A DNA stretch of 64,000 nucleotides, from contig NZ_LN831776.1 in assembly GCF_000981585.1 (NCBI RefSeq), positions 5,439,187 to 5,503,186 on the forward strand, read 5' to 3'. This document shows, piece by piece, positions 24,422-47,540 of this stretch. This DNA is from Paenibacillus riograndensis SBR5 (GTDB taxonomy: Bacteria; Bacillota; Bacilli; Paenibacillales; Paenibacillaceae). Below the pieces are notes generated by a model. It did no database searches. It had not been told where the DNA came from and saw only the letters and a list, made by a program, of their open reading frames with translations. Position numbers and translations under genes: made by a program. The stretch's first letter is position 1. Each line of letters begins with the position of its first letter.

Positions 24422-24437
24422 TGTTATAAAATTCACA
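24422..24437. promoter_or_regulatory. Degenerate Fnr/Rex-like site (pflB leader)
   Basis: Minus-strand TGTGAATTTTATAACA matches TGTGA-N6-TCACA with one mismatch in the second half-site. Confidence 0.35.
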
Positions 24438-24502
24438 ATTATATCTTCAAATCCGGGACCGTTGTTTATATAAACATTTTAGTTTATTTTCTGAAAAAGA
24501 AC

Positions 24503-24518
24503 TGTGACAAATATCACT
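24503..24518. promoter_or_regulatory. Fnr/Crp-type site 1 upstream of pflB
   Basis: TGTGACAAATATCACT fits TGTGA-N6-TCACA apart from the last base. Its centre is 21 bp from site 2, two helical turns. Confidence 0.75.
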
Positions 24519-24523
24519 ATTTC

Positions 24524-24539
24524 GGTGATATTTGTCACT
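24524..24539. promoter_or_regulatory. Fnr/Crp-type site 2 upstream of pflB
   Basis: GGTGATATTTGTCACT fits the same palindrome with one mismatch in each outer position. Together with site 1 it forms a perfect inverted repeat with 14-base arms (24504-24517 and 24525-24538). Confidence 0.75.
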
Positions 24540-24593
24540 TCCATCCAGTCCCATATTAACCTTTAACCATACTTTTTCCCATACAACCGTTAA

Positions 24594-27215
24594 TTAGTTG
24601 TCGAATCTGCCGTAGAAAGCATTGCGGTATACATCAGCAAGTTCGGAAACCAGCGGGAGTTTAGGGTTGGCAGTTGTACATTGGTCTTCAAATGCACGGT
24701 CAGCCAGATAATCTACACGGGATTCGAAATCCTTAGGATCGAAACCAAGTGCCTGGAACGACTCTTCGATGCCGAGTTTTTTGTTCATGTCGCGGATAGC
24801 GTTGATCAGGCTTGTTACGCCTTCTTCAGTGGTGCGGGCAGGCAATCCCAGAATGCGGGCGATTTCGGCATAACGTTCGTCAGCTACAAAGTGCGAATAT
24901 TTAGGGAACGAAGCGAACTTCGTAGGTTTCTTAGCGTTGTAGCGGATGACATGCGGCATCAGAATGGCATTGGTACGGCCATGGGCAGTGTGGTACTGTC
25001 CGCCCCATTTGTGCGCCAAGCTGTGGTTGATGCCCAGGAATGCGTTGGCAAAAGCCATACCAGCCAGCGTAGATGCGTTGTGCATTTTTTCGCGGGCAAG
25101 CTTGTCGCCTTGCAGTGCCGATTTTTCAAGGTATTGGAATACCAGTTGGATAGCTTTGATAGCCAGACCATCCGTATAGTCGCTTGCCATAACCGAAACG
25201 TAAGCTTCGATGGCATGTGTCAGAACGTCCATACCTGTATCGGCAACAGCTGTTTTTGGCAGGCTGTATACAAACTCAGGATCGATGATCGCTACGTCTG
25301 GAGTCAGCTCGTAGTCAGCCAATGGGTATTTCGTATTGTTGGCAGTAGTTTTATCAGTAATAACCGCGAAAGATGTTACTTCAGAACCGGTACCCGAAGT
25401 AGTTGGAATCGCTACGAATTTCGCTTTGTTTCCAAGCTTAGGGAATTTGTATACACGTTTGCGGATATCCATGAACTTCTGTTTCAGACCGTTAAAGTCA
25501 GCGTCCGGATGTTCGTAGAACAGCCACATGCCTTTGGCAGCATCCATTGGGGAACCGCCGCCGAGTGCGATGATGCAGTCCGGCTGGAATCTGTTCATCA
25601 TAGCTGTACCTTTTTCTACAGTTGTGGTCGACGGGTCCGGTTCAACTTCCGAGAACACTTCGATCGCTACTGGAGTCTGGCGTTGACGCAGGTAGTGCTC
25701 AACTCTTTCTACATAACCCAGTTTAACCATCATTGGGTCAGTGATAATAGCTACGCGTGTGATATCAGGCATTTTGGCCAGGTACTGAGTGGCACCTTTT
25801 TCGAAGTAGATCTTGTCAGGTACTTTAAACCATTGCATATTCACGGTACGACGGTTCACCCTTTTCACGTTGATCAGATTGACAGCAGTTACGTTCTGCG
25901 ATACAGAGTTGCGGCCGTAAGATCCGCAGCCCAGAGTCAGTGAAGGGATATTCGTATTGTAGATATCGCCGATTGCGCCATGTGTGGAAGGCGAGTTGAC
26001 GAGAATACGTCCGGTCTGCAGACGGTTCGAGAACTTCATGATCACTTCTTCGTTATGGGAGTGGATGGCCGAGCTGTGGCCCATACCGCCAAATTCAACA
26101 ACCTGTGCCGCACGTTCGATACCCTGGTCAGCATTTTTAACTTTGTAGCAAGCCAGAACCGGGCTCAATTTTTCTGCGGACAGCGGATATTTGGTGCCTA
26201 CGCCTTCAAGCTCTGCTACCAGAATCTTAGTGCCGGCAGGAACCTGAATTCCGCACATTTCAGCGATTTTCACTGCGGATTGACCTACAATTGCAGGGTT
26301 TACTGCGCATTTTTCCACGTTCATTGCGCCGCTTGTCAGTTTGGCAGCTTCTTCTTTATTTACAAAGTAGCAGCCGTTGGCAATCATTTTCTTCTTCACT
26401 TGGTCGAAGATCGCTTCTTCAATGATAACTGCCTGCTCGGAAGCGCAGATCATACCATTGTCGAATGTTTTGGAAAGGATGATGTCCGTTACGGCCTGAT
26501 CGATATCGGCGCTCTTCTCAATGAAGGCAGGCACGTTACCAGGGCCTACGCCAAGAGCCGGTTTACCGCAGCTGTAAGCTGCCTTAACCATTGCCGAACC
26601 GCCTGTTGCCAGGATCAGCGCAACGTCCGGGTTGTTCATAAGCGCGTTTGTTTTGTCCATCGTAGGCAGCTCGATCCACTGGATGCAGTTCTCAGGAGCG
26701 CCGGCTTTTACGGCTGCGTCATGGAGAATTTTGGCTGCTGCGGCACTACACTCTTGCGCAGATGGATGGAAACCGAATATAATAGGATTACGTGTCTTAG
26801 CGGCGATCAGTGCCTTAAACATCGTGGTGGATGTTGGATTGGTTACCGGTGTGATACCCATTACGATTCCGACCGGTTCGGCAATTTTTTGGAAACTGTC
26901 ATATTGATTGTCTTCTACTACGCCTACTGTCTTGTCATACTTAATGCCGTGCCAGATATATTCTGTTGCGAAGATGTTCTTCGTGATTTTGTCTTCATAA
27001 ACGCCGCGGCCTGTTTCTTCTACGGCGAGCTTTGCCAGGTACATGTGCTTGTCGAGTCCTGCCAGAGCCATTGCATGAACGATTGTGTTAACCTGCTCTT
27101 GATCCAGCTGCATGTAAGCTTCTTGAGCTTTCTTTGCTTTATCCACCAAAGTCTGAATATACTCTTCAGCAGTGGTTTGTTTCACTTGGGCGGCGACTTC
27201 GTTCTTAACTGCCAT
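24594..27215 (-). CDS. adhE: Bifunctional acetaldehyde-CoA/alcohol dehydrogenase
   Basis: Converts acetyl-CoA to acetaldehyde and then to ethanol, regenerating NAD+ in fermentation. At 873 residues it has the full two-domain structure: N-terminal CoA-acylating aldehyde dehydrogenase with catalytic Cys in NGMICASEQAVI, and C-terminal iron-dependent alcohol dehydrogenase with NAD motif ALGGGSPMDAAKGMW and metal histidines in INHSLAHKWGGQYHTAHG. Family proteins assemble into spirosomes. ATG 27215 follows GAGGACGAGGGAG. It has its own upstream region with two GTGA-N6-TCAC palindromes and a cre-like site, predicting redox and carbon catabolite control. It lies beside pflB, whose acetyl-CoA it consumes. 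Confidence 0.98.
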   Translation of the reverse strand: MAVKNEVAAQVKQTTAEEYIQTLVDKAKKAQEAYMQLDQEQVNTIVHAMALAGLDKHMYLAKLAVEETGRGVYEDKITKNIFATEYIWHGIKYDKTVGVVEDNQYDSFQKIAEPVGIVMGITPVTNPTSTTMFKALIAAKTRNPIIFGFHPSAQECSAAAAKILHDAAVKAGAPENCIQWIELPTMDKTNALMNNPDVALILATGGSAMVKAAYSCGKPALGVGPGNVPAFIEKSADIDQAVTDIILSKTFDNGMICASEQAVIIEEAIFDQVKKKMIANGCYFVNKEEAAKLTSGAMNVEKCAVNPAIVGQSAVKIAEMCGIQVPAGTKILVAELEGVGTKYPLSAEKLSPVLACYKVKNADQGIERAAQVVEFGGMGHSSAIHSHNEEVIMKFSNRLQTGRILVNSPSTHGAIGDIYNTNIPSLTLGCGSYGRNSVSQNVTAVNLINVKRVNRRTVNMQWFKVPDKIYFEKGATQYLAKMPDITRVAIITDPMMVKLGYVERVEHYLRQRQTPVAIEVFSEVEPDPSTTTVEKGTAMMNRFQPDCIIALGGGSPMDAAKGMWLFYEHPDADFNGLKQKFMDIRKRVYKFPKLGNKAKFVAIPTTSGTGSEVTSFAVITDKTTANNTKYPLADYELTPDVAIIDPEFVYSLPKTAVADTGMDVLTHAIEAYVSVMASDYTDGLAIKAIQLVFQYLEKSALQGDKLAREKMHNASTLAGMAFANAFLGINHSLAHKWGGQYHTAHGRTNAILMPHVIRYNAKKPTKFASFPKYSHFVADERYAEIARILGLPARTTEEGVTSLINAIRDMNKKLGIEESFQALGFDPKDFESRVDYLADRAFEDQCTTANPKLPLVSELADVYRNAFYGRFDN

Positions 27216-27291
27216 CTCCCTCGTCCTCCTGTCAATTTTTAGGTTGTTTTTCTCTACACATTCATCTTATCACATCGCATCAGGGTTGTAT

Positions 27292-27307
27292 AGTGAAATC
27301 TTTCACA
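27292..27307. promoter_or_regulatory. Fnr/Rex-like site 1 upstream of adhE
   Basis: AGTGAAATCTTTCACA fits TGTGA-N6-TCACA with one mismatch and also fits the Rex form GTGAA-N4-TTCAC. The centre is about 42 bp upstream of the start predicted from the -10-like TAAGAT. Confidence 0.65.
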
Positions 27308-27334
27308 AAGTATAAAGTTTTTTTTGATTTGTTT

Positions 27335-27348
27335 TCAAAGCGCTTTCA
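27335..27348. promoter_or_regulatory. cre-like site upstream of adhE
   Basis: Minus-strand TGAAAGCGCTTTGA matches the CcpA consensus TGWAANCGNTNWCA at 13 of 14 positions, including the AAGCGCTT core. Confidence 0.6.
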
Positions 27349-27418
27349 TTCGCTCTTAATCAGGATTATGTTCCATTTTATGTATGTTTTCTCCGTTATT
27401 TTTGTCTTTTTTGCAAAC

Positions 27419-27432
27419 GTGAATTTTTTCAC
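27419..27432. promoter_or_regulatory. Fnr/Rex-like site 2 upstream of adhE
   Basis: GTGAATTTTTTCAC is a perfect GTGA-N6-TCAC palindrome and equally a GTGAA-N4-TTCAC Rex-type palindrome, about 126 bp from site 1. Confidence 0.5.
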
Positions 27433-27512
27433 TTGACATATTTCCCCTTCAAATAGCTTTTTCGTCTTTGAATACACGCCCACTGCGATGTCCCCGAATC
27501 CCTGTCTAAAAT

Positions 27513-27586: not shown

Positions 27587-29050
27587 CTACTCAACCTTAA
27601 TCGTATCAAAGAACTTTTCCTGTACGGTTTTAGCTGCGGCGTCAAGCTGGGCTTTGGAGTCCGTGCCTTTTTTGGAGAAAAGCTCCTGAATCACATTGGA
27701 CATCGTTGCATAGTAATCCTGTGTGTTGTATTGCGCCTCCGGCTTGCCATCCAGCAGCCCCATAATATCCGGGTTGTATTGATAGACAATATCGTACTTG
27801 TCATAAATAGCTTTGGTTTTCTTGCCAAAATCAGAATCGGCGGCATAGTAGTCCAGAAGCGGCGGGATGAAGTATTTGCCGTCCGCTTTGCGCTGCTGCA
27901 GAATCGCATCCAATGCTTCCAGCCCTTTGTCGGAGAAGTAGTCAAAAGTGATATAGCGGAAAGCCATCTCCTGCTCGTCCGGGGTGGCATTCGGGTTGAT
28001 GACCAGATAGTCGCCGCCGAGTACGCCCGTGTGCTTGCCGCCCTTTTCCGCAGCGGGCATTGGATAAGTGAGCACATCCTCCGGTTTCAAGCCGCCCTGG
28101 TTCAGGGCTTGCTCGATCACACCGTCGGAACCGGCCATGACCATCGCTGTGCGTCCTTGCTGGAACGCGCCTACAGCGTCGCCCCAGCCCAGTGCCCAGT
28201 CCTGAGGAATGGCATTGGCTTCCCATCTCAGCTTCTTATAGAAATCCAGCGCCTTCACACCTGCCTCGGAGTTAAAGGTTGCTACCACTTTGCCGCCGTC
28301 AACCTTCTGGATCTCCCCGCCGGCTTCGAACAGGAAGTTGGTCCAGTTCCAGCCCGCTTCATTGCCTTTGCCCATCGGGGCGATACCGGAGATGCCTTTT
28401 TTGGCGTCAGCCGCTCCTTTGGCGGTGTTCAGCATATCCTCCCAGGTCCAGTCCATGGGCGGAACAGCTACACCTTTGTCATCCAGCATTTTTTTATTAA
28501 GCATCGTTGTGGTGACATAACCTTTTTGGGTGATGCCATACACCTTGCCGTCAATGATGAACTGGTTTTGCAGGACGGGATTGATCTGGTCCTTGTACTC
28601 ATATTTGTTCCACAGACCGGTGATGTCCGCCACCCAGCCCTTTTCGACGAGGAATTTCGCTTCCGTGGCATACGTATTGAAGAAGGTCGGGGCTTCATTG
28701 GCAGCCATTTTCACACCGATTTCACTAACGTTGTACTGCCAGTCGTCTTTGACAATCTCCACATTCGGGTACTCTGCCTGGAAACGCTTGATCTTATCAT
28801 CTTCCTGCGCCCGCACTTCCGTCAGGTCCGGTGTAGGATAATGGATCTTAATGGTGACCTTGCGGTCTTTAATATCATCTGCCGGCGCATTGGTGGCTGC
28901 ACTGTTGTCTGCCGCTTTGTCCGTGGCGGCCGGTGATGCTTCTCCCCCCTCTGTTCCCTTGGCGCTATTGTTGTTATTGTTGCCGCTGCACGCGGATAAC
29001 AACGATCCTGTCACCAGGAGACAGGCTAGGACGCTGGAAAATTTACGCAT
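27587..29050 (-). CDS. Sugar ABC transporter substrate-binding lipoprotein, set C
   Basis: CUT1 solute-binding lipoprotein of 487 residues. A signal peptide with lipobox LLSAC is followed by an Asn/Ala/Asp-rich linker and the binding fold (VTIKIHYPTPDLTEVRAQEDD...). Family landmarks are MAANEAPTFFNTYATEAKFLV, YGITQKGYVTTTMLNKKML and GRTAMVMAGSDGVI. It is the last gene of a unit ordered yesM, yesN, permease, permease, binding protein. The neighbouring phosphorylase, esterase and phosphoglucomutase genes suggest an alpha-linked glucose oligosaccharide or a modified one as ligand; this is inferred from context only. Confidence 0.92.
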   Translation of the reverse strand: MRKFSSVLACLLVTGSLLSACSGNNNNNSAKGTEGGEASPAATDKAADNSAATNAPADDIKDRKVTIKIHYPTPDLTEVRAQEDDKIKRFQAEYPNVEIVKDDWQYNVSEIGVKMAANEAPTFFNTYATEAKFLVEKGWVADITGLWNKYEYKDQINPVLQNQFIIDGKVYGITQKGYVTTTMLNKKMLDDKGVAVPPMDWTWEDMLNTAKGAADAKKGISGIAPMGKGNEAGWNWTNFLFEAGGEIQKVDGGKVVATFNSEAGVKALDFYKKLRWEANAIPQDWALGWGDAVGAFQQGRTAMVMAGSDGVIEQALNQGGLKPEDVLTYPMPAAEKGGKHTGVLGGDYLVINPNATPDEQEMAFRYITFDYFSDKGLEALDAILQQRKADGKYFIPPLLDYYAADSDFGKKTKAIYDKYDIVYQYNPDIMGLLDGKPEAQYNTQDYYATMSNVIQELFSKKGTDSKAQLDAAAKTVQEKFFDTIKVE

Positions 29051-29181
29051 TGAAACTCCCCTTTTCCATTCATAGTTAGCTTACAGATTTATCTTAAGAG
29101 AGAACCCGTGTCCGCACGAGGTGCATTTATATTCCTTTCATGTGCAGGTTTACGGTCTGTGGTTCAAACGCACACCCCGTG

Positions 29182-30054
29182 TTACCCCTTCACTGCCGAC
29201 AAAGCCACACCGCGCATAATAAATTTCTGGAACAGCAGGAACACCAGAATCGGCGGCAGAGAAACCAGAAAGAGAATGGCAAATTTGATATTGGTGTTGA
29301 GCGCCTTAACGGCGATTACATATTTATAGATCGCTGTGGCGAGAGTGTATTTATCCTCACTGTGCATAACAAGGGACGGCCAGAACCAGTCATTCCAGGC
29401 AGTTGAGAAAATAAAGATCGCCAGTGTGGCAAAAATGGGAATGGACAGCGGCACAGCTATCGAGAAAAAACTGCGCGGCTCCGAGGCCCCGTCAATCCGT
29501 GCGGCTTCAAAAATCTCCGGATGGATTCCGTCAAAAAAGTTCTTCAAAAGCAGGAAGTAAAACGTATTCGCTCCCGCCGGCAGCCAGAATGCCGCATACT
29601 GGTTCAGCAGTCCAAGCTCCTTCAGATTGACGAAGTTCGGAATCATATAACTGGTCGCCGGGATAAACAAAGTCATCAGGAAGAAAAAATAAAACACCTT
29701 GCGGTAAGGCACGTTCATCCGGGAAATGCTGAAGGAAGCAAGGCCAAGTACAATAAGAGTCACAGCCATATTCCCCACGAAAATATAGAGTGTGTTTCTG
29801 AGGAACACCAGCAGATCGATATAGTTCAGCGCATCCTTCAAATTGCCGAAATGCCACTCCTGCGGAAAAAAATGCGGCGGAAAGGAATTGACCTCCGTGT
29901 TGGATTTGAGACCGTTGAACATCGTCATCAGGATCGGATAGAGCATGGTAAAGACCATGACCAGGATGAAAAACACCATAATCCCGTAAACGATTTTGTT
30001 GCTTGTTTTTTTCAGATCATGTTCGGAAAGAATGCCTCTGTCTGCGCTCTTCAT
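29182..30054 (-). CDS. CUT1 sugar ABC permease (MalG-like), set C
   Basis: Permease of 290 residues with six helices; the EAA loop reads PEIFEAARIDGASEPRSFFSI and the protein ends in the usual VKG tail. It begins one base after the MalF-type gene, so the two are translationally coupled. It forms the membrane channel with that subunit. No ATPase is encoded locally. Confidence 0.93.
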   Translation of the reverse strand: MKSADRGILSEHDLKKTSNKIVYGIMVFFILVMVFTMLYPILMTMFNGLKSNTEVNSFPPHFFPQEWHFGNLKDALNYIDLLVFLRNTLYIFVGNMAVTLIVLGLASFSISRMNVPYRKVFYFFFLMTLFIPATSYMIPNFVNLKELGLLNQYAAFWLPAGANTFYFLLLKNFFDGIHPEIFEAARIDGASEPRSFFSIAVPLSIPIFATLAIFIFSTAWNDWFWPSLVMHSEDKYTLATAIYKYVIAVKALNTNIKFAILFLVSLPPILVFLLFQKFIMRGVALSAVKG

Positions 30055-30055
30055 G

Positions 30056-30979
30056 TTAGTTGTCCTCCTTGTTCAGCTTGAACTGCACAATGCCCAAACC
30101 GCCGAGAACAATGAACATCAGCATGCCAAGCGCCGTCGCCGTTCCGTAATCCAGCCGGGTAAAAGCATACTTTACAATCAGCAGCGCGTAGGTCAGCGTG
30201 GTATTATTCGGGCCTCCATCCAGCAAAGCAAGCTGTGACTGGTAACCCTGGGAGGTGGCAATAATCTGCAGAATCAGCATCAGGACAATCAGATTGCGCA
30301 AAGAGGGCAGTGTGATATGGCGGATACGGGCCCACACCCCGGCACCGTCAATTTCAGCAGCTTCGTACCAATCGCGGGGAATACTGAGCACAGCCGCCAG
30401 ATAAATGAGCATCCCCGAGCCAAACTGCTGCCAGGTTTCCATAAAAACTAACGAGATCATCGACCACCTGCTGTCCGTCAGAAAAGAGATTTGATCCGCC
30501 CCCATTGTCCCGAGCAGCGCATTGATGGGTCCGACCGGATCGTACAGCCATCTCCACAAGCCATACAGCACGACAGCCGGCAGTACAAACGGCAGATAAG
30601 CCGCCACACGGACAAAGCCGCCGAATTTCCGCAGCTCGGAAATGGCGATGGCAAAGGCAATCGGCACCCAGAAGCCGATCACCAGGCAGAGCACCATGTA
30701 ATACAGGGTATTTTTTACAGCAATCAATACATCCGGGTCCGTAAGCGCTCTGGCATAATTATCGAGGCCGGCAAAGGTATTGCCCTTTACGAAGTCCACG
30801 GTATAGAAGCTGTACATAAACCCTTTAAAAATTGGAACCCACATAAACAATACAAAAATAATAATGGCGGGTAAGAGAAACATATATCCCCAAAAGTTTT
30901 TTTTCCAGCGGTTCTGTTTGTGCGGTTTGCGCTCAAGCTTCGCCGGCATTGTCTCGTGGATTGAAGCGGTTTGGTTCAT
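30056..30979 (-). CDS. CUT1 sugar ABC permease (MalF-like), set C
   Basis: Permease of 307 residues with six helices preceded by a basic N-terminal tail (KLERKPHKQNRWKKNFWGY). The EAA loop reads RDWYEAAEIDGAGVWARIRHI. It follows the regulator gene by about 115 bp, leaving room for a separate promoter controlled by the YesN protein encoded just upstream. It pairs with the MalG-type subunit. Confidence 0.93.
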   Translation of the reverse strand: MNQTASIHETMPAKLERKPHKQNRWKKNFWGYMFLLPAIIIFVLFMWVPIFKGFMYSFYTVDFVKGNTFAGLDNYARALTDPDVLIAVKNTLYYMVLCLVIGFWVPIAFAIAISELRKFGGFVRVAAYLPFVLPAVVLYGLWRWLYDPVGPINALLGTMGADQISFLTDSRWSMISLVFMETWQQFGSGMLIYLAAVLSIPRDWYEAAEIDGAGVWARIRHITLPSLRNLIVLMLILQIIATSQGYQSQLALLDGGPNNTTLTYALLIVKYAFTRLDYGTATALGMLMFIVLGGLGIVQFKLNKEDN

Positions 30980-31094
30980 CTGGCTCCCTCATTCCTTTTG
31001 TCTTTCAGCACTTGCACCAAGCGCTGCCTGCATTAATTGTAGAAAAGGAGCCGAAGCCTGAACATGTCTATATCTACCGCAATCGTAAGCGTTC

Positions 31095-32423
31095 TTACTT
31101 CTTCAGTTCGCTGGGGCTGATGCCGTAATATTTTTTGAAAATCTTGCTGAAATGCTCCGGGGACTCATAGCCCACCCGCTCCGCAATCTCGTAACGGCGC
31201 AGGTCAGTATGCAGAAGCATCTCGCGGCTGTCCTCCATCCGCAGCTTGATGACATATTCCCACAGGTTGTGGCCTGTATTTTTTTTGAACAGATAGCTCA
31301 GGTAGTTGGGGCTGACGTGATTTTTTTTGGCCACCTCATGGATCGTCAAGCCCTTCTGGGCATAGTTCTCGTCGATATACTCCTTGGCCTTCTGCACAAT
31401 CAGGTTGCTGTGCGTATGCAGCTCCTCGGCTGAAGGATCGGCGGCATAGCTGCTCCAGTTGAAATCACCGTAGTAGAACACATAGTAATCGGAGTGCTCC
31501 TTGTTCCACTGAATGGCCTTTGAGGCTTGGCGGTTCAGCACATCCATAAAGGACAAGCCCTTAAGGATCTGGCTGATGCCAATTACGGCATTCAAATGCA
31601 GGTACTTATGGATATTTAAATGCAGAGTGCGGCCCAGCACATCCAGCCGGTTGATCTGACCCGCAGCCGATTCCTCATAGGTCTTCTCATCCCACTGGAT
31701 CACAACGGTGATCTCCTCCTCCGGAGAATAAAAAGCCACCGTACTCCACTCCTGGTCCAGCAGCTCTTTGGCAATGTTAAGCGCGGCATAACGCAGCAGC
31801 TCCCGGTCGCGGAAGGTGTATTTTTTCTCCCCGTCTTCTTCCGGCAGCGGCAGTTTGATCTTGATTACGGAGAAAAAAGGCCCCTGCAGCTTCAGCTCAT
31901 CCAGCTTCCGCAGCTTCTGCTCATCGCCCAGCACAGAGGCAGGCTCTTCAATGAGCGCGTTCAGCAGCCTGCTGTATTCGGGCAGCGGCTCCTCCAGGCG
32001 GAAGCTCTCGCCAATCCCGGCCATGAAGGTGGCCAGCTCCGGGGAGGGTTTGTCCATTTTGAGCAGCACATTCCGTACCGAATCGAGAAAATGCTCGCTG
32101 TTCAGCGGCTTGATCAGATAATCCTTCGCCCCCAGCCGGACGGCCATCTGGGCATATTGGAACGTCTCATGAGCGGAGATGATAATGGTCTGCACCCATG
32201 GTTTGGCCAGCTTGGCGTGCTGCATCAGCTCAATGCCGCTCATGGCCCCCATCTGGATATCCGTCACCAGCAGATCAACCTCCTCCATGCGGATAACATC
32301 CAAGGCTTCAAAGCCGCTGTTTGCGGTATAAATATGGCCGATCTCCAGTCCCGAGGAAGCCAGCAGGCTGCCCAGCCCTTTGCAAATCAGCGGCTCATCG
32401 TCTACAACCAGTACATTAAACAT
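31095..32423 (-). CDS. AraC-type response regulator (YesN), set C
   Basis: Response regulator of 442 residues. Receiver: VVDDEPLICKG, phospho-acceptor Asp in LLVTDIQMGAMSG, Lys in YLIKPLNSEH. A long central region follows, then an AraC domain with two helix-turn-helix units (LTIHEVAKKNHVSPNYLSYL; YEIAERVGYESPEHFSKIF). It starts 16 bp after yesM and is followed by the permease genes, the likely target of activation. Confidence 0.94.
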   Translation of the reverse strand: MFNVLVVDDEPLICKGLGSLLASSGLEIGHIYTANSGFEALDVIRMEEVDLLVTDIQMGAMSGIELMQHAKLAKPWVQTIIISAHETFQYAQMAVRLGAKDYLIKPLNSEHFLDSVRNVLLKMDKPSPELATFMAGIGESFRLEEPLPEYSRLLNALIEEPASVLGDEQKLRKLDELKLQGPFFSVIKIKLPLPEEDGEKKYTFRDRELLRYAALNIAKELLDQEWSTVAFYSPEEEITVVIQWDEKTYEESAAGQINRLDVLGRTLHLNIHKYLHLNAVIGISQILKGLSFMDVLNRQASKAIQWNKEHSDYYVFYYGDFNWSSYAADPSAEELHTHSNLIVQKAKEYIDENYAQKGLTIHEVAKKNHVSPNYLSYLFKKNTGHNLWEYVIKLRMEDSREMLLHTDLRRYEIAERVGYESPEHFSKIFKKYYGISPSELKK

Positions 32424-32439
32424 CTAAGAGGCCACCTTT

Positions 32440-34233: not shown

Positions 34234-34454
34234 CTGGATACACCTCCAGTTTTAATAATATAGCAAACGGATAAGCGCTTACATAGGTTTATTTTAATGG
34301 AAATGATGTTCAATTATATGTATTTTTCAGTTAGCAGCGGATTGGAGAGGCAAGGGGGAGTCACTAGTTGCTATTTCAAGTCCGCTTTATATAGCACTGC
34401 TCAGCTACTTCTTCAACAGGCGCTACTTGGAAAAAAACTATTAAATTCCACTGA
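34234..34454. other. Upstream region of yesM set C
   Basis: It holds a cre-like palindrome (34270-34283) and AT-rich sequence. From 34330 it resembles the lineage-specific intergenic repeat type also seen at 53.5 kb (TACTTGGAAAAA, AATTCCAC). No gene is seen. Confidence 0.5.
34270..34283. promoter_or_regulatory. cre-like site upstream of yesM set C
   Basis: GATAAGCGCTTACA matches the CcpA consensus at 12 of 14 positions and is palindromic around GCGC. Confidence 0.5.
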
Positions 34455-34487
34455 CAAAAAAAGGAACTGTCATTAGACAGTTCCTTT
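34455..34487 (-). terminator. Terminator of the GH65/PGM/esterase operon
   Basis: Perfect 12-bp stem AAAGGAACTGTC / GACAGTTCCTTT (34460-34471 with 34476-34487) followed by T-run on the minus strand. Confidence 0.92.
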
Positions 34488-34542
34488 GCATGATCATCTA
34501 GGAACGATGATGTTTCGAATATTCTTTAGAAAAGACTTTTAC

Positions 34543-35340
34543 CTACTTCGTGTAGCCGTTCAACGCCAGCCAGGAAGCGCAGGCCTCAGTCCAGCTCCGG
34601 GTGTGCGGCTCCCCGTCGGCCAGGCCAAGCCCATGCTGGCCATGAGCATACACGTGAAGATCAAACGGAATGCGGTGACGGCTTAACGCAGCAGCAAATT
34701 GCAGGCTGTTCTCCACAGGCACCGCTCCGTCATCCGAAGTATGCCACAGGAAGGCAGGCGGGGTAGCTGCCGTAACCTGAAGCTCGCTGCTGAGACGCTT
34801 CACCAGCTCCGGATCGGGGTCTGTCCCCAGCTGATTCTCCTTGGAACCCTGATGGGTCACTCCTTCAGCCATGGATATTACCGGATAACATAGAATCAAC
34901 AAATCCGGACGTGAGGACTTCCGTTCCAAAGGCTCTGAAGCTTCTTCATCACCCGCATCGAACAGAACACCGGCAGCAGAAGCTAAATGTCCGCCTGCCG
35001 AAAATCCCAGGATTCCCAGTCTGTCAGGATCTATCCCATACTCTTCAGCGCGGTAACGGATCGTGCGGAGCGCACGCTGAGCATCCCGCAGCGCATGGGG
35101 GTATCCATAAGGCGCTACGCGGTATCGCAGCACAAAAGCCGAGATTCCCAGTGTATTCAGCCATTCAGCCACCGGTCCTCCTTCGTGGTCTGCACGCATG
35201 CCATACCCGCCGCCCGGACAGACAAGCACAGCGGCGTTCTTGTCACCTTCCACCAGATAAGGCGTAATCGCCGGGCAATCCTCATCGCTTGTTCCCAGTG
35301 CGCCAGGCGCCCCTTCCGGCCATAACAACATTGTCTTCAT
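34543..35340 (-). CDS. Alpha/beta hydrolase, acetyl-esterase-like
   Basis: Cytoplasmic esterase of the BD-FAE/acetyl xylan esterase type, 265 residues, no signal peptide. The oxyanion region GGGYGMRADHEG, nucleophile Ser in GFSAGGHLAS, acid Asp in WHTSDDGAVPVENS and catalytic His in HGQHGLGLA form a full triad. It is expected to remove acetyl or other acyl groups from a sugar. ATG 35340 has GAGGG six bases upstream; an ATG two codons earlier is too close to that site. It is the last gene of an operon with beta-phosphoglucomutase and two GH65 enzymes, suggesting that the imported alpha-glucoside may be acylated. Substrate not known. Confidence 0.88.
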   Translation of the reverse strand: MKTMLLWPEGAPGALGTSDEDCPAITPYLVEGDKNAAVLVCPGGGYGMRADHEGGPVAEWLNTLGISAFVLRYRVAPYGYPHALRDAQRALRTIRYRAEEYGIDPDRLGILGFSAGGHLASAAGVLFDAGDEEASEPLERKSSRPDLLILCYPVISMAEGVTHQGSKENQLGTDPDPELVKRLSSELQVTAATPPAFLWHTSDDGAVPVENSLQFAAALSRHRIPFDLHVYAHGQHGLGLADGEPHTRSWTEACASWLALNGYTK

Positions 35341-35426
35341 GTTCATCCCTCAAGCTTTCTTCCATTGGATAGAATTATTTCATACAGGAAATCGCTTTCT
35401 TTCCCTGCAATAAGTCTACCAAGGTC

Positions 35427-36056: not shown

Positions 36057-36099
36057 GTATATTCTGTCCTCTCCATTTAGATAAACTTTCTGGCTTTTA

Positions 36100-40697: not shown

Positions 40698-41041
40698 GAA
40701 TGAACGCTCCTTCTCCCGAGTTGTGTCCTCCGGCTTCATGAATTAGAAACCGTAGGACGCTCACTTCCAGCGTAGCTCTCAGAAGAAAGAAGGCCAATGT
40801 CAGCCGATAACAGAGTTATGTGCATTTTTACGGAGTTGAAAGAAATCAACAGATTGCGTTATGCTAGAAAAGACTTTGTCCCCGATTAAGGCCAAAATCA
40901 TATTAAATCTCACACCTTTGAAGTGAAAATTATCACAATGTTAAAAATTCGACACTTTTTCGGGAAAATATTCACCCATAAAGAGGAATTTCAATGTATA
41001 ATTAATTTAAAATTTACTGAAAAACTGAGGGAATAAAGGGG
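40698..41041. other. Divergent region between GH65 operon and fnr
   Basis: It carries an Fnr-type palindrome (40923-40936) and a TATAAT element (40997-41002) for fnr. The promoter of the GH65 operon must also lie here, but I could not assign it. No gene is seen. Confidence 0.6.
40922..40937. promoter_or_regulatory. Fnr-type site upstream of fnr
   Basis: AGTGAAAATTATCACA fits TGTGA-N6-TCACA with one mismatch. It lies about 105 bp upstream of the fnr start codon and suggests autoregulation or a shared effect on the divergent GH65 operon. Confidence 0.6.
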
Positions 41042-41770
41042 ATGTCGATTATGATAAAGGAACATTATAATGTTATCGAAGCCCACGGAAATACAAACTG
41101 TTTCTCCGAACAGAACTTTAACCGGCTTCTGGTCACAATGAAAGAGCGTATGGTGCCGGAGGGCTCTCACCTGTTTTGGGAGGGCGACTACTCGGATAAA
41201 TTGTTTTATATCAAACGTGGACGTGTGAAATTAACCAAATCTACCGACGAAGGCAAGGAACTCATTCTGTATATGTATCAGGCAGGCGACATGGTAGGTC
41301 AGGCAGACCCGTTCTTCAGCACCAAGCACAGCTTTACCGCCGAAGTGATTGAGGAAAGTGAAGTTGGCGTTATCGAGCAGAAGGATCTGGAGATTCTGAT
41401 CTGCCAGCATTGTGATTTTGCGATAGACTTTATGAAATGGATGGGTATCCATCACCGTCTCACCCAGACCAAATTCCGTGATCTGATGATGTACGGCAAG
41501 CCAGGCGCACTCTGCTCCACGCTGATCCGGCTGGGCAATACCTATGGGGAGAAGTCCGGGGACAGCATTCTGATCAACAAAAAAATTACGCATACGGATC
41601 TCTCCAACATGATCGGTGCTACCCGTGAGAGCGTCAACCGGATGCTGAGCGATCTGCGTAAAAAAGATGCTGTGGAATATGAGAACGGCATGATCGTCAT
41701 CAAGGATCTTTCGATGCTTCAGGACATCTGCCACTGTGAATTATGTCCGAACGAAATTTGCCGCATTTAA
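41042..41770 (+). CDS. fnr: Fnr-type anaerobic regulator
   Basis: Crp/Fnr-family transcription activator of 242 residues: cyclic-nucleotide-binding fold, dimerisation helix and winged HTH. The C-terminus CHCELCPNEICRI has Cys at 230, 232, 235 and 240. C232, C235 and C240 reproduce the C-x2-C-x4-C spacing that binds [4Fe-4S] in Bacillus subtilis Fnr (C227, C230, C235). Asp147 in FRDLMM is a candidate fourth ligand, by analogy with B. subtilis Asp141. The recognition helix has TRESVNR (R195, E196, R200), the Crp pattern for TGTGA half-sites, which matches palindromes at pflB, adhE and nirB. It is monocistronic with its own terminator. Confidence 0.96.
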   Translation: MSIMIKEHYNVIEAHGNTNCFSEQNFNRLLVTMKERMVPEGSHLFWEGDYSDKLFYIKRGRVKLTKSTDEGKELILYMYQAGDMVGQADPFFSTKHSFTAEVIEESEVGVIEQKDLEILICQHCDFAIDFMKWMGIHHRLTQTKFRDLMMYGKPGALCSTLIRLGNTYGEKSGDSILINKKITHTDLSNMIGATRESVNRMLSDLRKKDAVEYENGMIVIKDLSMLQDICHCELCPNEICRI

Positions 41771-41992: not shown

Positions 41993-42811
41993 CTAGCTTA
42001 CTTGTTTTTTGGTCCCGCTGACAACGCCTGGCCGTGCGGCCCGCACCGGGGAAATCAGCCAATAGGCCATGCCGACAAATACGCCGCCGCCAACAATATT
42101 GCCTAAGGTCACAGGAATCATATTATGAAACCATCCGGCCAGGCTGACCGTTTCCGGGTGGTTAGGCAGCAGCACCGCTACGCTCAGCAGCGTCATATTG
42201 GCCACACTGTGCTCATAGCCGCTCGCGATGAAGGCGAACAGACACCACCAGATCAGCACCAGCTTAGCGGTTTCACTTTTGGCGCGCGAGGCCATCCATA
42301 GTGCCAGGCAGACCAGCCAGTTACAGAGAATACCGCGGAAGAACAGCTCAGAGAAGGGCAGACTCATTTTTTTGGCGGCTGCGGTGAAGATCAGATGTTC
42401 TGCCGGAGCAGCGCTGAACAATCCTGTGCCCCGGATCAGCAGAGCCAGAACCACAGCACCGGCTACATTCCCGATAAAGACGATGATCCAGTTCTTCACT
42501 GTATCCCACACGCTGGTCCGGCCGGCAAGGGTGCTTACGGTGAAAAACATATTGTTCCCGGTGAACAGCTCCGAGCCGGCGAAGACCACCAGCGTCAGGG
42601 CAATCCCGAAGGACGTCCCCATAATCAGCGGCTGAAAAGGCGATTTGACCGCCGCCAGCGGTGCTCCCAGCGAAAAAATCAGAATAATACCAATACCTAC
42701 ATATGCTCCGGCCAACAATGCGGCAAGAAAATATTTCGGCAGACTTTCATTCATTTTGTCACGTTTGGCTGCTGCCGTCTCTACGATATTTTCCACACTT
42801 TGCGTAAACAC
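41993..42811 (-). CDS. nirC: Formate/nitrite channel (FNT family, NirC-like)
   Basis: Pentameric channel of the FNT family for nitrite or formate, 272 residues with six helices. Family signatures include SELFTGNNMFF (P-x-G-E-x-F/L-F-T-G type motif) and the FxxSGYEHSVANM segment with the pore histidine. The start is GTG 42811 behind GGGGTGG. It is the third gene of nirB-nirD-nirC, so nitrite is the probable substrate, although formate produced by PflB is a reasonable alternative given the nearby pfl genes. Confidence 0.92.
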   Translation of the reverse strand: MFTQSVENIVETAAAKRDKMNESLPKYFLAALLAGAYVGIGIILIFSLGAPLAAVKSPFQPLIMGTSFGIALTLVVFAGSELFTGNNMFFTVSTLAGRTSVWDTVKNWIIVFIGNVAGAVVLALLIRGTGLFSAAPAEHLIFTAAAKKMSLPFSELFFRGILCNWLVCLALWMASRAKSETAKLVLIWWCLFAFIASGYEHSVANMTLLSVAVLLPNHPETVSLAGWFHNMIPVTLGNIVGGGVFVGMAYWLISPVRAARPGVVSGTKKQVS

Positions 42812-42853: not shown

Positions 42854-43174
42854 CTACAAGCAGACCTTTACACGATCTCCGTCCAGCTCTACCGGGTATA
42901 CCTTCACCTTGCCGTGATCCGGGGCCTGCACTTCGCCGCTGCGCAGATCGATCTTCCAGTCATACAGCGGATCATACAGATAGCTGCCGGAGACGATACC
43001 CTCAGCCAGCGGACCGCCTTTTGGATGCGGACTGCGGTTCTCTATGGCATGAATCTCTCCGTCAGAGGTGCGGAATATTGCCAGCTCCACCCCGCCTGCA
43101 ACGACAACCCGCCCAATCTGCAGCAGGAAGTCCTGCGTCTTGCCTACAGCATATTCTTGTGTCGCAGTTTTCAT
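42854..43174 (-). CDS. nirD: Nitrite reductase small subunit with altered Rieske motif
   Basis: Small subunit of assimilatory/detoxifying NAD(P)H nitrite reductase, 106 residues, Rieske-fold. In related NasE/NirD proteins the first cluster motif reads CPH and the second CPLH. Here the corresponding segments are RSPHPKGGPL and YDPLYDWKI, so Cys to Ser, Cys to Asp and His to Tyr changes remove three of four ligands. The fold and GEI/GKVKVYPVEL strands are kept. E. coli NirD also lacks the cluster ligands, so function is still plausible. It lies 30 bp after nirB. Confidence 0.9.
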   Translation of the reverse strand: MKTATQEYAVGKTQDFLLQIGRVVVAGGVELAIFRTSDGEIHAIENRSPHPKGGPLAEGIVSGSYLYDPLYDWKIDLRSGEVQAPDHGKVKVYPVELDGDRVKVCL

Positions 43175-43204: not shown

Positions 43205-45631
43205 TCAGACTCTGGTCTGTTCAAACAATGCGGTACGCGTCTCTTGGTCATCCAGCATTTTTTTCCACGGATCTGAAACCTGTGCCAGGGCAAAATCAAT
43301 CCGGGCCGCCAGCTCCTTGCGGTTGTCTTCGTTGTCCAGAATCACCCGCTGGATCTGCTCAAGCCCGATGCGTTCCACCCACTCGGAGGTCCGCTCCAGA
43401 TAATTGCCGGTCTCCCGGTAATACTGCATGACTGCGGAGCAGACCTCAATCAGCTCTTCATCGGTTTTCACTTTGCAGAAGGAGTCAGCGATCCGCGGCT
43501 TGATTCCGCCGTTACCGCCAATAAAAATCTCCCAGCCGCCATCGTTGCCGACGATGCCGATATCCTTGGTGCAGGATTCCGCACAGTTGCGCGGGCAGCC
43601 GTTAACCGCCATCTTGAACTTGGCCGGAAAATCAAGACGCTCGTATTTGCGCTCAAGCAATGCCCCCATACCCATAGAATCCTGAGTGCCGAACCGGCAG
43701 AACTGGGAACCTACACAGGTTTTTACGGTACGGAGCGATTTCGCATAGGCATAACCCGATGGCATATCAAGCTCTTCCCATACTTTAGGCACATCCTCTT
43801 TTTTGACCCCAATCAGGTCCAGGCGCTGTCCGCCGGTTACCTTCACCACTTTTACATCATATTTCAAGGAGACATCGGCAATCCGCTTCAAATCCTCCGG
43901 TGTGGTAACCCCGCCGTACATGCGCGGCACAACCGTAAAGGTGCCATCCTTCTGAATATTCGCACTCATCCGTTCATTGACAAAGCGCGATTCCTTCTCA
44001 TCCTCATGCGTATCCGGGTAAAGCATACCCAGATAATAGTTCACAGCCGGACGGCATTTCGAGCAGCCCTCAGCTTGCTTCCAGCCCAGCACATTCATGA
44101 CTTCTTTGGTCGTTTTCAGGCCTTTCGCGGTGATTTCGGCCACAATTTCATCCCGGCTCAAGGTGGTGCAGCCGCAGATTCCCTGCTTGGCGCCCTGCTG
44201 GAAGCTGTCCCCAAGGACAAACTGCAGGATCTGCTCAACGACCGGCTTGCAGCCGCCGCAGGAACGGGTAGCTCCGGTGCAGGCCTTGATCTCATCCACA
44301 GTCGTGAAGCCATTCTCCGTAACGGCATCTACAATGGCCTTTTTGGTCACGCCGTTGCAGCCGCAGACAATCTCTTCATCCGCCATCGTCTCTACCGACA
44401 AGCCCTTCTTGGCTCCGCCTCCGCCGCAGCAGCCGGTGCCCATAACCTCGCTGTAAATCTCGTCGGTCATCTCTGCACCCTGCTTCACCAGCTTTTGCAG
44501 ATTTGCCGATTCCGTAACATCACCGAACAGCACTGCACCGACGATAATGTTATTTTTGAGCAAAATCTTCTTGTAGGTCCGCTTCCATTCATCCTTGGCC
44601 GAAATGACCGTATGCTCAGCGGTTTCCGTGAATTCACCGGCAGAGAAAACATCCACTCCGGAGATTTTCAGCTTGGTGGCTACAACCGATCCTTCATAAG
44701 GCTGAGTCGGTACGCCGCAGAGGTGCTTCGCAAGCACACTTCCCTGCTCGAACAGCGGTGCTACCAGACCGTAGCAGGTTCCTCTGTGTTCTGTACATTC
44801 GCCGACGGAATATACACCCGGGATCGAGGTTTGCAGATAATCATCAACGACAATCCCGCGGTTAACCGTAATGCCGCTCTCTCTGGCCAGCTGCGTATTC
44901 GGCTTAATCCCAACAGCCATAACGACAAAATCCGCTGCCAGCTCCGTTCCGTCACTGAAACGCAGTCCGTTGACACGTTCGTCCCCGGTCAGTTCAACCG
45001 TCTGTTTGCCCATGGCAAATTTCACGCCCTGGCGCGCAAGCTCCGCCTGAAGCATAGCTGAAGCATTGTGATCCAGCTGCCGTTCCATCAGATCCTCCAG
45101 CAGATGTACGACTGTAACATCCATGCCGAGGTTCACAAGCCCTTTGGCTGCTTCCAGTCCGAGCAGTCCGCCGCCGATCACTGCCGCCGTGCGGTACGTC
45201 TTGGCTGCGGCAATCATTGCATCGCAATCGGCAATATCGCGGAAGCCCACTACCCCTTCCTTGTCGCTGCCCGGTACAGGCAGAATGAACGAATTGGACC
45301 CTGTAGCAATGATGGCCTTGTCAAAAGGAACCGACATCCCGTTATCTGTGATAATCTGCCGTGCCGCTTCATCGATTCGGACCACGGTCGTTCCTGTGTG
45401 CAGCGTAATATTGTGATCCGCATACCACTGGCGGTCATTCAGCACGATTTCTTCTATGGTTTTACTTCCTTCAAGCACGTAGGACAGCATTATCCGATTG
45501 TAATTGGGATGCGGCTCGCTGCCGAATACAGTAATATCATAAGCGCCGCCAAGCTTCAAAATCTGCTCTACCGTCCCGACACCTGCCATACCGTTACCAA
45601 TGAGTACTAGCTTTTCTCTCTCCACTGTCAT
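43205..45631 (-). CDS. nirB: NAD(P)H nitrite reductase large subunit
   Basis: Cytoplasmic siroheme enzyme that reduces nitrite to ammonium, 808 residues. Domain order: FAD/NAD(P)H oxidoreductase (GNGMAGVGTVEQIL near the N-terminus, second dinucleotide motif IGGGLLGLEAA near 145), two BFD-like [2Fe-2S] domains (CGCNGVTKKAI... and CGCTTLSRDEI...), then the sulfite/nitrite reductase ferredoxin-like and siroheme domains with C-x5-C (CVGSQFC) and C-x3-C (CPRNC). ATG 45631 follows GGAGGGG; the ORF reaches a TTG at 45649 without support. It leads nirB-nirD-nirC. Two perfect TGTGA-N6-TCACA sites lie about 85-120 bp upstream. Confidence 0.97.
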   Translation of the reverse strand: MTVEREKLVLIGNGMAGVGTVEQILKLGGAYDITVFGSEPHPNYNRIMLSYVLEGSKTIEEIVLNDRQWYADHNITLHTGTTVVRIDEAARQIITDNGMSVPFDKAIIATGSNSFILPVPGSDKEGVVGFRDIADCDAMIAAAKTYRTAAVIGGGLLGLEAAKGLVNLGMDVTVVHLLEDLMERQLDHNASAMLQAELARQGVKFAMGKQTVELTGDERVNGLRFSDGTELAADFVVMAVGIKPNTQLARESGITVNRGIVVDDYLQTSIPGVYSVGECTEHRGTCYGLVAPLFEQGSVLAKHLCGVPTQPYEGSVVATKLKISGVDVFSAGEFTETAEHTVISAKDEWKRTYKKILLKNNIIVGAVLFGDVTESANLQKLVKQGAEMTDEIYSEVMGTGCCGGGGAKKGLSVETMADEEIVCGCNGVTKKAIVDAVTENGFTTVDEIKACTGATRSCGGCKPVVEQILQFVLGDSFQQGAKQGICGCTTLSRDEIVAEITAKGLKTTKEVMNVLGWKQAEGCSKCRPAVNYYLGMLYPDTHEDEKESRFVNERMSANIQKDGTFTVVPRMYGGVTTPEDLKRIADVSLKYDVKVVKVTGGQRLDLIGVKKEDVPKVWEELDMPSGYAYAKSLRTVKTCVGSQFCRFGTQDSMGMGALLERKYERLDFPAKFKMAVNGCPRNCAESCTKDIGIVGNDGGWEIFIGGNGGIKPRIADSFCKVKTDEELIEVCSAVMQYYRETGNYLERTSEWVERIGLEQIQRVILDNEDNRKELAARIDFALAQVSDPWKKMLDDQETRTALFEQTRV

Positions 45632-45686
45632 TGTTGTGCCCCTCCTCAAACCATCTGCATTTCATCACAATACATCTGATAGTGAA

Positions 45687-45692
45687 ATTATA
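45687..45692 (-). promoter_or_regulatory. -10 element of the nirB promoter
   Basis: TATAAT on the minus strand. The implied start near 45680 puts Fnr site 1 at about -42 and site 2 at about -63, a class II activator position. Confidence 0.55.
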
Positions 45693-45714: not shown

Positions 45715-45730
45715 TGTGATTGCAATCACA
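45715..45730. promoter_or_regulatory. Fnr-type site 1 upstream of nirB
   Basis: TGTGATTGCAATCACA is a perfect TGTGA-N6-TCACA palindrome. Confidence 0.85.
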
Positions 45731-45735
45731 TTAAA

Positions 45736-45751
45736 TGTGAAGATTTTCACA
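45736..45751. promoter_or_regulatory. Fnr-type site 2 upstream of nirB
   Basis: TGTGAAGATTTTCACA is a perfect TGTGA-N6-TCACA palindrome, 21 bp centre-to-centre from site 1; it also fits the Rex pattern GTGAA-N4-TTCAC. Confidence 0.85.
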
Positions 45752-45785: not shown

Positions 45786-45833
45786 CAAAAAAATACCAGA
45801 TTCCCGAGCATATAAGCAAAAGAAATCTGGTGT
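45786..45833 (-). terminator. Terminator of the DUF4430-like lipoprotein gene
   Basis: ACCAGATT (45795-45802) pairs with AATCTGGT (45824-45831), followed by ATTTTTTTG on the minus strand. Confidence 0.8.
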
Positions 45834-45845
45834 TATACTCTTCCA

Positions 45846-46547: not shown

Positions 46548-46674
46548 TTCCGGCACCGCCTTCTTCCGCCCGCTCTCAGTCTCCGCTGCTGCTCAGGCAT
46601 GTCTTGATGAAATACATAGTCTTTTTAAGAATAACGTAATCGGATGCCATTCTCAATTCTTCCTGCCCCATTGC

Positions 46675-46698
46675 TAAAAAAAAGTCCCCGAAGGGACT
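46675..46698 (-). terminator. scdA terminator
   Basis: AGTCCC-CGAA-GGGACT tetraloop hairpin (46683-46698) followed by eight T on the minus strand. Confidence 0.9.
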
Positions 46699-46717
46699 CG
46701 TGAAACTGCTCAAGCTT

Positions 46718-47449
46718 CTATTGGTAACGCAGGAACAGGATATTATTCTCCAGATGGACATGCTCAAAGGTCATTCCCTCCAGCTCTTCAAGCCGGGCAT
46801 AGGTGAGACGGTAGGTTGTGCAGGCGTGCTCCGGCGGTGTGTAATCATTGGTAACTCTCCGCAGCTCGCGCAAAATATCGCCCGCCCCGTCATGCTCCGC
46901 TTCCAGCGTACGCAGAAGTCCGCGCAGCTCGGTCAAGCCGTCCTCTGTAGGATTTTTTTCATAAGCAAGCATTTTGGGAAACTCGCTTTCTTCTTCCTTG
47001 GCCGTATGCTCCAGCAATTCCTCCCGCAGCGTATGGAACAGCCGGTACACTTCCGCCAAATGCGGGGAGTCCTCGCCGTGTACCCGGAAGACCTTGGTCA
47101 CATTCTGGGCAATCAGCGGCAGCTCCTCGCGCAAATATCTGTGATGCTTATTGATAATGTAGTCGGCCAGCTCTTCTGATGAAGCTTCGTTCCAAGCCGA
47201 ATCTTCTTCCAGCACCGGATGCTCGGCCAGCAGCTTGTTCAGATCCTGGAGCACTGCTCCTGTATCAAGCCCTTTTTCTGCTGCAGCCTCTACCAGAGGT
47301 TTTGCGCCTCCGCAGCAGAAATCAATCCGCTGTGCCTTGAAATAATCCGCCGCTTTGGGGAATTGAAGGACGATATCCCTTACCATCGCTTCACCGGAAA
47401 AATGGACGGAACCTTCCGTCACTGTATTGTTCAATTGTTTGGCCGTCAT
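46718..47449 (-). CDS. scdA: Di-iron Fe-S cluster repair protein (ScdA/YtfE/RIC)
   Basis: Repairs iron-sulfur clusters damaged by nitric oxide or oxidants. 243 residues: an N-terminal DUF542 domain (VRDIVLQFPKAADYFKAQRIDFCCGG with the family Cys pair) and a C-terminal hemerythrin-like di-iron domain with ligands in INKHHRYL, LFHTLREELLEHTAKEE, LEAEHDGAG and FEHVHLEN. ATG 47449 follows GGGAGGGG. Its place next to nitrite reductase and fnr fits protection during nitrite/NO metabolism. An imperfect Fnr-like site lies about 80 bp upstream. Confidence 0.95.
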   Translation of the reverse strand: MTAKQLNNTVTEGSVHFSGEAMVRDIVLQFPKAADYFKAQRIDFCCGGAKPLVEAAAEKGLDTGAVLQDLNKLLAEHPVLEEDSAWNEASSEELADYIINKHHRYLREELPLIAQNVTKVFRVHGEDSPHLAEVYRLFHTLREELLEHTAKEEESEFPKMLAYEKNPTEDGLTELRGLLRTLEAEHDGAGDILRELRRVTNDYTPPEHACTTYRLTYARLEELEGMTFEHVHLENNILFLRYQ

Positions 47450-47524
47450 GCTGGCCCCTCCCTTACGTTGTTGGTTTAGGTTTTCTTTTACCCTCTTACC
47501 TTAACGCGGGCAGGTGTGGCGGCT

Positions 47525-47540
47525 TGTGATTGTACGCACT
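47525..47540. promoter_or_regulatory. Imperfect Fnr-like site upstream of scdA
   Basis: TGTGATTGTACGCACT has a perfect first half-site and two mismatches in the second half of TGTGA-N6-TCACA. Confidence 0.35.

Follow-up and report, generated by a model that had tools for sequence, protein, structure and literature searches.

The window analysed here is a 64,000-nucleotide stretch (G000:C1:5439187-5503186) of the 7.92 Mb genome of Paenibacillus riograndensis SBR5, in which fnr, the gene of a Crp/Fnr-family regulator, lies with genes of fermentation and nitrite reduction that are preceded by palindromes of the type TGTGA-N6-TCACA. Profile searches identified pflB, adhE, sugar ATP-binding cassette (ABC) transporter permeases, fnr, a nirC-like gene, nirB and scdA, as well as two family-65 glycoside hydrolase/phosphorylase-like genes; a sugar-binding protein gene, a Rieske-like nirD and a radical SAM pflA-like gene were also matched by profiles. 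A close relative is Paenibacillus jilunlii, whose Fnr (locus L038) is identical. Comparison of related loci indicates that this is quite probably a conserved anaerobic control region of Paenibacillus and its near kin, at which Fnr would act as a class II activator and the NADH-sensing repressor Rex would likely share sites with it.

Genes and palindromes of the locus

The fermentation genes are encoded on the minus strand. Pyruvate formate-lyase is specified by pflB (22069-24330; TIGR01255, 1220.7 bits, cut-off 994.2), whose likely start is the ATG at 24330 behind GGAGGG and not position 24345. The radical SAM activating enzyme gene (21200-21937; Radical_SAM, Fer4_12) was named pflA from its family and position, and adhE (24594-27215; NF010378, 1410.3 bits) encodes a bifunctional acetaldehyde/alcohol dehydrogenase. 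Also on the minus strand are nirB (43205-45649), the nitrite reductase large subunit (TIGR02374, 1032.5 bits), nirD (42854-43174), a Rieske-like small subunit (PF13806) again named from family and position, a nirC-like formate/nitrite transporter gene (41993-42811), which is over the cut-off of TIGR00790 and below that of the NirC model, and scdA/ric (46718-47449), encoding a di-iron protein of iron-sulphur (Fe-S) cluster repair. The plus-strand fnr (41042-41770) encodes 242 amino acids, with the Pfam domains cNMP_binding and HTH_Crp_2 over cut-off.

All palindromes listed in an earlier note on this DNA are present, although the far adhE site spans 27418-27433 and not 27419-27432. They are read here on the minus strand, except the one at fnr, to which no strand is assigned. 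Both nirB sites, the proximal TGTGATTGCAATCACA (45715-45730) and the distal TGTGAAGATTTTCACA (45736-45751), match TGTGA-N6-TCACA perfectly. One mismatch is found in the promoter-proximal Fnr-type site of pflB (AGTGATATTTGTCACA, 24503-24518), in the adhE promoter site (27292-27307; TTGTGAAAGATTTCACTA with one flanking base on each side) and in the fnr upstream site (AGTGAAAATTATCACA, 40922-40937), and two mismatches in the second pflB site (24524-24539), in the far adhE site and in the weak scdA site (47525-47540). A further site with one mismatch occupies 24422-24437, where the span of the earlier note begins, while its text is silent on it.

With up to two mismatches allowed, no clear excess was observed in the window (31 sites against 22.9 expected, with 7 of 100 shuffles as high), and such counts, not being above shuffles, were rejected as evidence of enrichment. 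At one mismatch or fewer, all six sites of the window fall within the five promoter regions, none of them at scdA, and 29 other half-site letter orders average 0.03 in the same regions, with a maximum of 1. Enrichment beyond the window, on which the earlier proposal of a regulon depended, was found as well: 194 sites were counted in the genome, where the reversed control pattern gave 104, and the sites are thus genome-wide, not only local. Elsewhere, a cytochrome bd subunit gene and an NADH oxidase-like gene each have a perfect site upstream, and another is located some 0.5 kb ahead of a nitrogenase iron protein gene (L008, G000:C1:4549754-4552769).

The least regular palindrome is that of scdA. 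Among 19 scdA upstream regions, a site with up to two mismatches is present in 12 and one with up to one mismatch in 4, at varying positions, and it probably does not act as a strong site for Fnr in this species. The palindrome itself was correctly reported; the link to Fe-S repair that had been built on it is weak.

Promoter geometry and candidate regulators

Conservation was assessed in the best 80 loci of 157 Fnr relatives found. The recurrent neighbours kept across these loci are fnr, adhE-pflB-pflA and nirBDC. In 53 of the 62 sequences having both starts (the window included), adhE and fnr are divergent and less than 1000 bp apart, and the interval between them carries two sites with up to one mismatch in 44 cases, three in 4 and one in 5.

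To relate palindromes to promoters, -10 boxes were scored at every distance from the site centre, so that all start points are predicted ones. The mean score peaks with the site centred at -41.5 for pflB (n = 63, z 4.7), at -42.5 for adhE (n = 57, z 4.2) and at -42.5 for nirB (n = 51, z 3.1); the highest z values of the other site sets (fnr 2.7, pflB leader 2.3, far adhE 2.4) occur at other distances. Centres at -41.5 or -42.5 are the geometry of Crp/Fnr class II activators. In the window, the pflB site at 24503-24518 is centred at -41.5 relative to a predicted start point at about 24469, behind the -10 box TAAAAT (24476-24481, minus strand), and the second site lies 21 bp farther upstream, at -62.5. 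The adhE site is centred at -42.5 from TAAGAT (27264-27269), and the nirB sites at -42.5 and -63.5 from TATAAT (45687-45692). Several pflB and adhE promoters from other genera and families have this offset as well, and a spacing of 29 bp from site to -10 box is shared by the promoter of the small RNA candidate presented below, an unrelated transcript, which supports the assignment to Fnr.

The pflB site is kept in all 63 loci, and the adhE site, combined with a -10 box scoring 2.5 or more at offset 29-30, in 60 of 65. A pair of sites with up to two mismatches each precedes nirB in 49 of 51 loci. The identical 21-bp centre spacing noticed earlier for the pflB and nirB pairs is correct and recurs in relatives: it was measured at 48 of 51 nirB promoters, the other three comprising one with 22 bp and two that have no pair, and in 39 of 63 pflB loci. 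The remaining pflB loci show 19 bp (9 loci), 30-31 bp (12) or 41 bp (1), and 2 have no pair. Over both genes, the spacing is mostly 21 bp or about one turn more. The far adhE site is absent at up to two mismatches from all 11 close relatives examined and is therefore probably not functional. A conserved second adhE site was likewise rejected, as most of the "other adhE" sites, detected in 49 of 65 loci, turned out to be the fnr site seen from the other side; in 50 of 61 loci, the adhE upstream region extends over the site nearest to fnr. Between the two adhE sites of the window, at 27335-27348, lies TCAAAGCGCTTTCA, which is also present in several close relatives and which we take to resemble a CcpA cre site.

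The regulator itself is well conserved. The recognition helix of Fnr reads R-E-S-V-N-R, confirming the R-E-x3-R helix attributed to the protein earlier, and R195, E196 and R200 are invariant in 81 of 81 Fnr sequences, as are C230, C232, C235 and C240 of the C-terminal C-x-C-x2-C-x4-C. In CRP, an R-E-x3-R helix reads TGTGA. Taking the ligand spacing of the B. subtilis Fnr cluster as the basis of comparison for C232, C235 and C240, we infer that the protein carries a C-terminal Fe-S cluster. C20, C121 and C124 are likewise invariant in all 81 sequences.

Presence of Fnr also tracks that of its proposed targets. Within the order, 15 of 159 genomes are without an Fnr match at E 1e-40, and neither PflB nor AdhE (E 1e-15) is found in any of these 15, against both in 18 of 25 Fnr-bearing genomes hand-picked for diversity. 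These data bear on whether the activator could be another Crp/Fnr paralogue of this genome and not the local Fnr. HTH_Crp_2 has 18 matches in the genome, and among the 10 inspected by eye at least three further proteins carry R-E-x3-R helices (L020, RETISR; L024, REVVSR; L028, RETVNR). The local Fnr is, on the other hand, the only one of these 10 with a C-terminal C-x2-C-x4-C, and it is syntenic with the targets, so that we hold such a substitution to be very unlikely.

Several observations weigh against activation by Fnr and have to be set beside it. The three paralogues could, judging by their helices, read the same half-site, and the co-occurrence of Fnr with PflB and AdhE may merely reflect an anaerobic way of life. 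The loci are related by descent, so the z values of the -10 scores are descriptive and overstate independence, and the nirB peak (3.1) is little above the best of the other sets (2.7). Across loci, the fnr site has no -10 peak at the class II distance; in the window it lies at about -79.5 from TATAAT (40997-41002). Most of the other near-perfect genome sites checked are without a -10 box at the class II offset, and no site of up to one mismatch was found in 8 of 18 upstream regions of pflB from other genera and families, where some starts were placed roughly. Finally, the adhE site abuts TATACT (27309-27314) of a possible second promoter, kept in part of the loci, which would give the site a repressor-like position.

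The genome encodes one Rex, and the Rex motif TTGTGAAN4TTCACAA, with up to two mismatches, occurs 48 times against 8 for the control. Three matches within one or two mismatches are located in the window, at the adhE promoter (one mismatch), in the pflB leader and at the nirB distal site, while the pattern is absent from the pflB distal, nirB proximal and fnr sites. We compared inner bases as the fraction of loci with A at position 7 and T at position 12 of the 18-mer. They are Rex-like at adhE (0.95 and 0.82) and at the nirB distal site (0.73 and 1.00), not Rex-like at the pflB distal (0.02 and 0) and nirB proximal (0.47 and 0) sites, and in between at the pflB leader (0.89 and 0.24). The fnr site, kept as the nearest one in 77 of 78 loci, is asymmetric, with AAGTGAA on the left and TCACAA on the right (A7 in 77 of 77, T12 and T2 in none of 77); these figures come from a nearest-site recount, which replaced an fnr row in the first count that had mixed two sites. 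In another part of the genome, the start of a frame for an Fe-only nitrogenase beta subunit overlaps a Rex-like site (L120, site at G000:C1:3267718).

One could suppose from the single Rex gene, the motif counts and the inner bases at adhE and nirB distal that the palindromes are chiefly Rex operators, through which Rex represses pflB, adhE and nir at low NADH while Fnr is minor; in the excerpted text of PMC2883068, Staphylococcus aureus Rex binds much the same genes. The pflB distal and nirB proximal sites are, however, without Rex inner bases and lie at the class II activator position, with a phasing not needed by a repressor, and the small RNA promoter site has A7 in none of 27 rows and T12 in 4 of 27. 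A regulon run chiefly by Rex is thus unlikely, and both the inner bases and the geometry of the pflB distal and nirB proximal sites led us to reject Rex as their sole reader. Sharing of sites between Fnr and Rex appears likely from the motifs.

Site presence and conservation, predicted -10 distance, synteny and co-occurrence are the observed features from which we infer binding by Fnr, oxygen sensing, the direction of regulation and the part of Rex. Under oxygen limitation, an Fnr dimer would bind TGTGA-N6-TCACA centred at -41.5 or -42.5 and, as a class II activator, recruit RNA polymerase at pflB, adhE and nirB. A second dimer bound 21 bp upstream at pflB and nirB would occupy the same face of the DNA. 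The adhE, distal nirB and pflB leader sites would fit the operator of Rex, and activation by Fnr would then be combined with repression by Rex on or next to the same palindromes. Control by Fnr as first proposed is accordingly supported for pflB, adhE and nirB by geometry, synteny and co-occurrence, and not as sole control; the Rex gene, the Rex-like sites, the R-E-x3-R paralogues and the genome-wide spread of sites speak against one local regulator.

The pflB leader and a small RNA candidate

The 5' leader of pflB (24331-24469, minus strand) is predicted to be a structured RNA. Three helices were modelled: an outer one of GGTCCC and GGGATC, a middle hairpin at a Rex-like palindrome (TTGTGAATTTTATAACAA, 24421-24438, minus strand), and a third hairpin before the ribosome site. 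The palindrome follows the predicted pflB start point by about 40 bases, which places it within the predicted transcript, and it may serve as a DNA operator, an RNA hairpin, or both.

Structure was evaluated in 47 of 63 leaders, near-identical ones being excluded, against 500 shuffles. Paired cells (82.1% against 75.3% in shuffles), cells changed on both sides (89 against 43.2) and the covariation score (0.233 against 0.144) were each higher than in all 500 shuffles. Two counts were not above shuffles: pairs changed on both sides, 12 of 22 against 10.5 (reached in 105 of 500 shuffles), and further pair types, 31 against 29.5 (reached in 133 of 500). Sliding the pairing partners lowers all measures. 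The structure was written from one alignment row, which favours the structure; RNAalifold, with no structure supplied, recovered the middle and third helices and not the outer one. Folding energies of single leaders from four species (z -2.3, -2.3, -1.0 and -0.6) are unremarkable in two. The leader model matches 41 of 49 genomes of the same genus and none of 31 others, at one place per genome, except for one genome with a second, weak match. No match was found in Rfam 15, and nothing of this kind on pflB in the open-licence PubMed Central (PMC) papers searched; a central fermentation gene would here carry a structured leader that is new.

These results raise the question of whether the pflB palindromes are mainly RNA elements, with the repeat at 24503-24539 ending adhE transcription and 24421-24438 forming an RNA hairpin. 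The two upstream sites together make a 14-bp perfect inverted repeat, followed by AGTTCTTTTT on the minus strand, and the downstream palindrome sits within the covarying leader. Against this, the 21-bp spacing of the pair is missing from 24 of 63 loci, although the class II site and its -10 box persist, and all 47 leaders have the same left half, TGTGA, in the leader palindrome, a constancy beyond the needs of pairing, which suggests that a protein reads this palindrome too. A perfect palindrome is also present close before pflB in G081 and G115, two genomes on which the leader model was not run. A mainly RNA-based role of the pflB palindromes is improbable.

A second transcript with an Fnr-type promoter was found outside the window. 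The small RNA candidate (L012, 1345-1520, minus strand; G000:C1:6026437-6026612) has a perfect site at G000:C1:6026593 and TATAAT at the class II offset of 29, followed by about 115-120 bases that fold with z -7.9 (124 nucleotides given) and end in a U run. It lies downstream of a frame presumably resembling sbcC. A 46-amino-acid GTG frame (L012, 1375-1515, minus strand) spans the stretch, beginning at the activator site and hence before the predicted start point, and a 43-amino-acid frame is found on the opposite strand.

DNA searches detected the candidate in 33 of 37 genomes of the genus and in none of 23 others. Among 30 loci fetched, 29 could be placed, the remaining one being near a contig end. 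All 29 have the site, 24 perfect and 5 with one mismatch, and a -10 box (TATAAT in 28, TATACT in 1) at offset 29, which was imposed in the placing. In the structure of 27 aligned rows, 96.8% of cells are paired and 12 of 30 pairs are changed on both sides, both values higher than in all 500 shuffles. A second model, from which the activator site was left out, was run on 34 chosen genomes and gave 16 matches with E of up to 0.05 in five genera, 15 of these genomes not being in the model. All 16 carry a site with up to one mismatch at offset 29, here not imposed; two weaker matches, in G122 and G141, have no such site, and 16 of the 34 genomes gave no match. Rfam 15 likewise contains no match, and the same open-licence papers yielded no small RNA of this kind. 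In five genera, an Fnr-type promoter thus precedes a conserved, structured, terminator-ended RNA, probably a new small RNA, which if expressed would give a large Gram-positive group a regulatory RNA induced by anaerobiosis.

Near G000:C1:4357542 (L006, 1240-1410, minus strand), a perfect site with TATATT at offset 30 precedes a small frame, rich in cysteine and roughly 60 codons long, and a terminator-like hairpin.

Sequence complementarity offers a speculative target of the small RNA in pflB. The motif CCGACAT is invariant in its 27 aligned rows and, as CCGACAU, complements AUGUCGG; pflB begins with ATGTCGG in 63 of 63 loci (24324-24330, minus strand, in the window). The second codon, Ser2, is TCG in all 63, the only one-codon case among 130 invariant Ser, Leu, Arg, Val, Gly, Ala, Pro and Thr residues, and in G141, which has no credible small RNA match, the pflB start is ATGGCGG. 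Pairing is disfavoured by G081 and G115, which have ATGTCGG without a detected small RNA, and by G080 and G082, in which the small RNA reads CCGACAA. By duplex energy, pflB comes 28th among 209 candidate start regions and 19% of the shuffled ends of the small RNA do as well, so that energy lends the pairing no support. A search for targets through the extended complement GATGTCGGCTTAG, allowing one mismatch at most, gave no signal (14 hits against 15 for the control, one of the 14 being the small RNA gene itself) and was discarded. A feed-forward loop, in which Fnr would activate both pflB and a small RNA whose CCGACAU pairs with the pflB start AUGUCGG, so that transcription and, through small RNA and leader, translation are controlled, is accordingly doubtful.

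Other features of the window concern its sugar genes and a further leader. In the window and its nearest relatives, adhE and fnr are farther apart than 1000 bp, and in the window the interval (about 27587-40739) contains sugar ABC transporter, response regulator and glycoside phosphorylase-like genes. Kojibiose-phosphorylase-like genes adjoin fnr here and in several other loci. A T-box leader was matched at 5641-5901 on the minus strand (83 bits against a gathering score of 93, E 1.8e-16).

Comparison with known systems

Together these data provide a sequence-level map of oxygen control over mixed-acid fermentation and nitrite reduction in Paenibacillus, a genus in which some strains fix nitrogen. 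The closest known counterpart is Fnr of Bacillus (B. subtilis and B. cereus), likewise with a Crp-like helix, C-terminal cysteines and anaerobic target genes, and B. subtilis Fnr has promoters with the site at -41.5. The Paenibacillus system differs in that fnr lies beside adhE-pflB-pflA and nirBDC, and in its small RNA candidate and structured pflB leader. The same -41.5 activator geometry is known from class II promoters of CRP and FNR in E. coli, a likeness by description and without a claim of homology. This also holds for FnrS of E. coli, a small RNA activated by FNR: there, as proposed here, an anaerobic activator drives a small terminator-ended RNA.

The consensus itself is not new. In the part of PMC8151001 available to us, Table 1 of this work on B. 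cereus gives the FNR consensus as TGTGANNNNNNTCACA, the same as found here, and a potential FNR site is reported before a nitrite reductase gene beside ric; the core finding is therefore a known kind of control. According to the excerpt of PMC2883068, S. aureus Rex binds upstream of adhE and nirC and of the pflB, nir and srrAB operons, at the near-identical palindrome TTGTGAAW4TTCACAA. The regulator is a repressor in that species, whereas the main pflB and nirB sites of Paenibacillus lack Rex inner bases and have activator geometry. In B. cereus, as stated in the accessible portion of PMC4162614, the Rex motif of ldhA overlaps the motifs of Fnr and ResD, so that redox regulators with overlapping motifs meet at one promoter, as suggested here. 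Unlike the ldhA case, the overlap in Paenibacillus is suggested by cross-species comparison, at adhE, nirB and the pflB leader, where one palindrome may serve two redox regulators.

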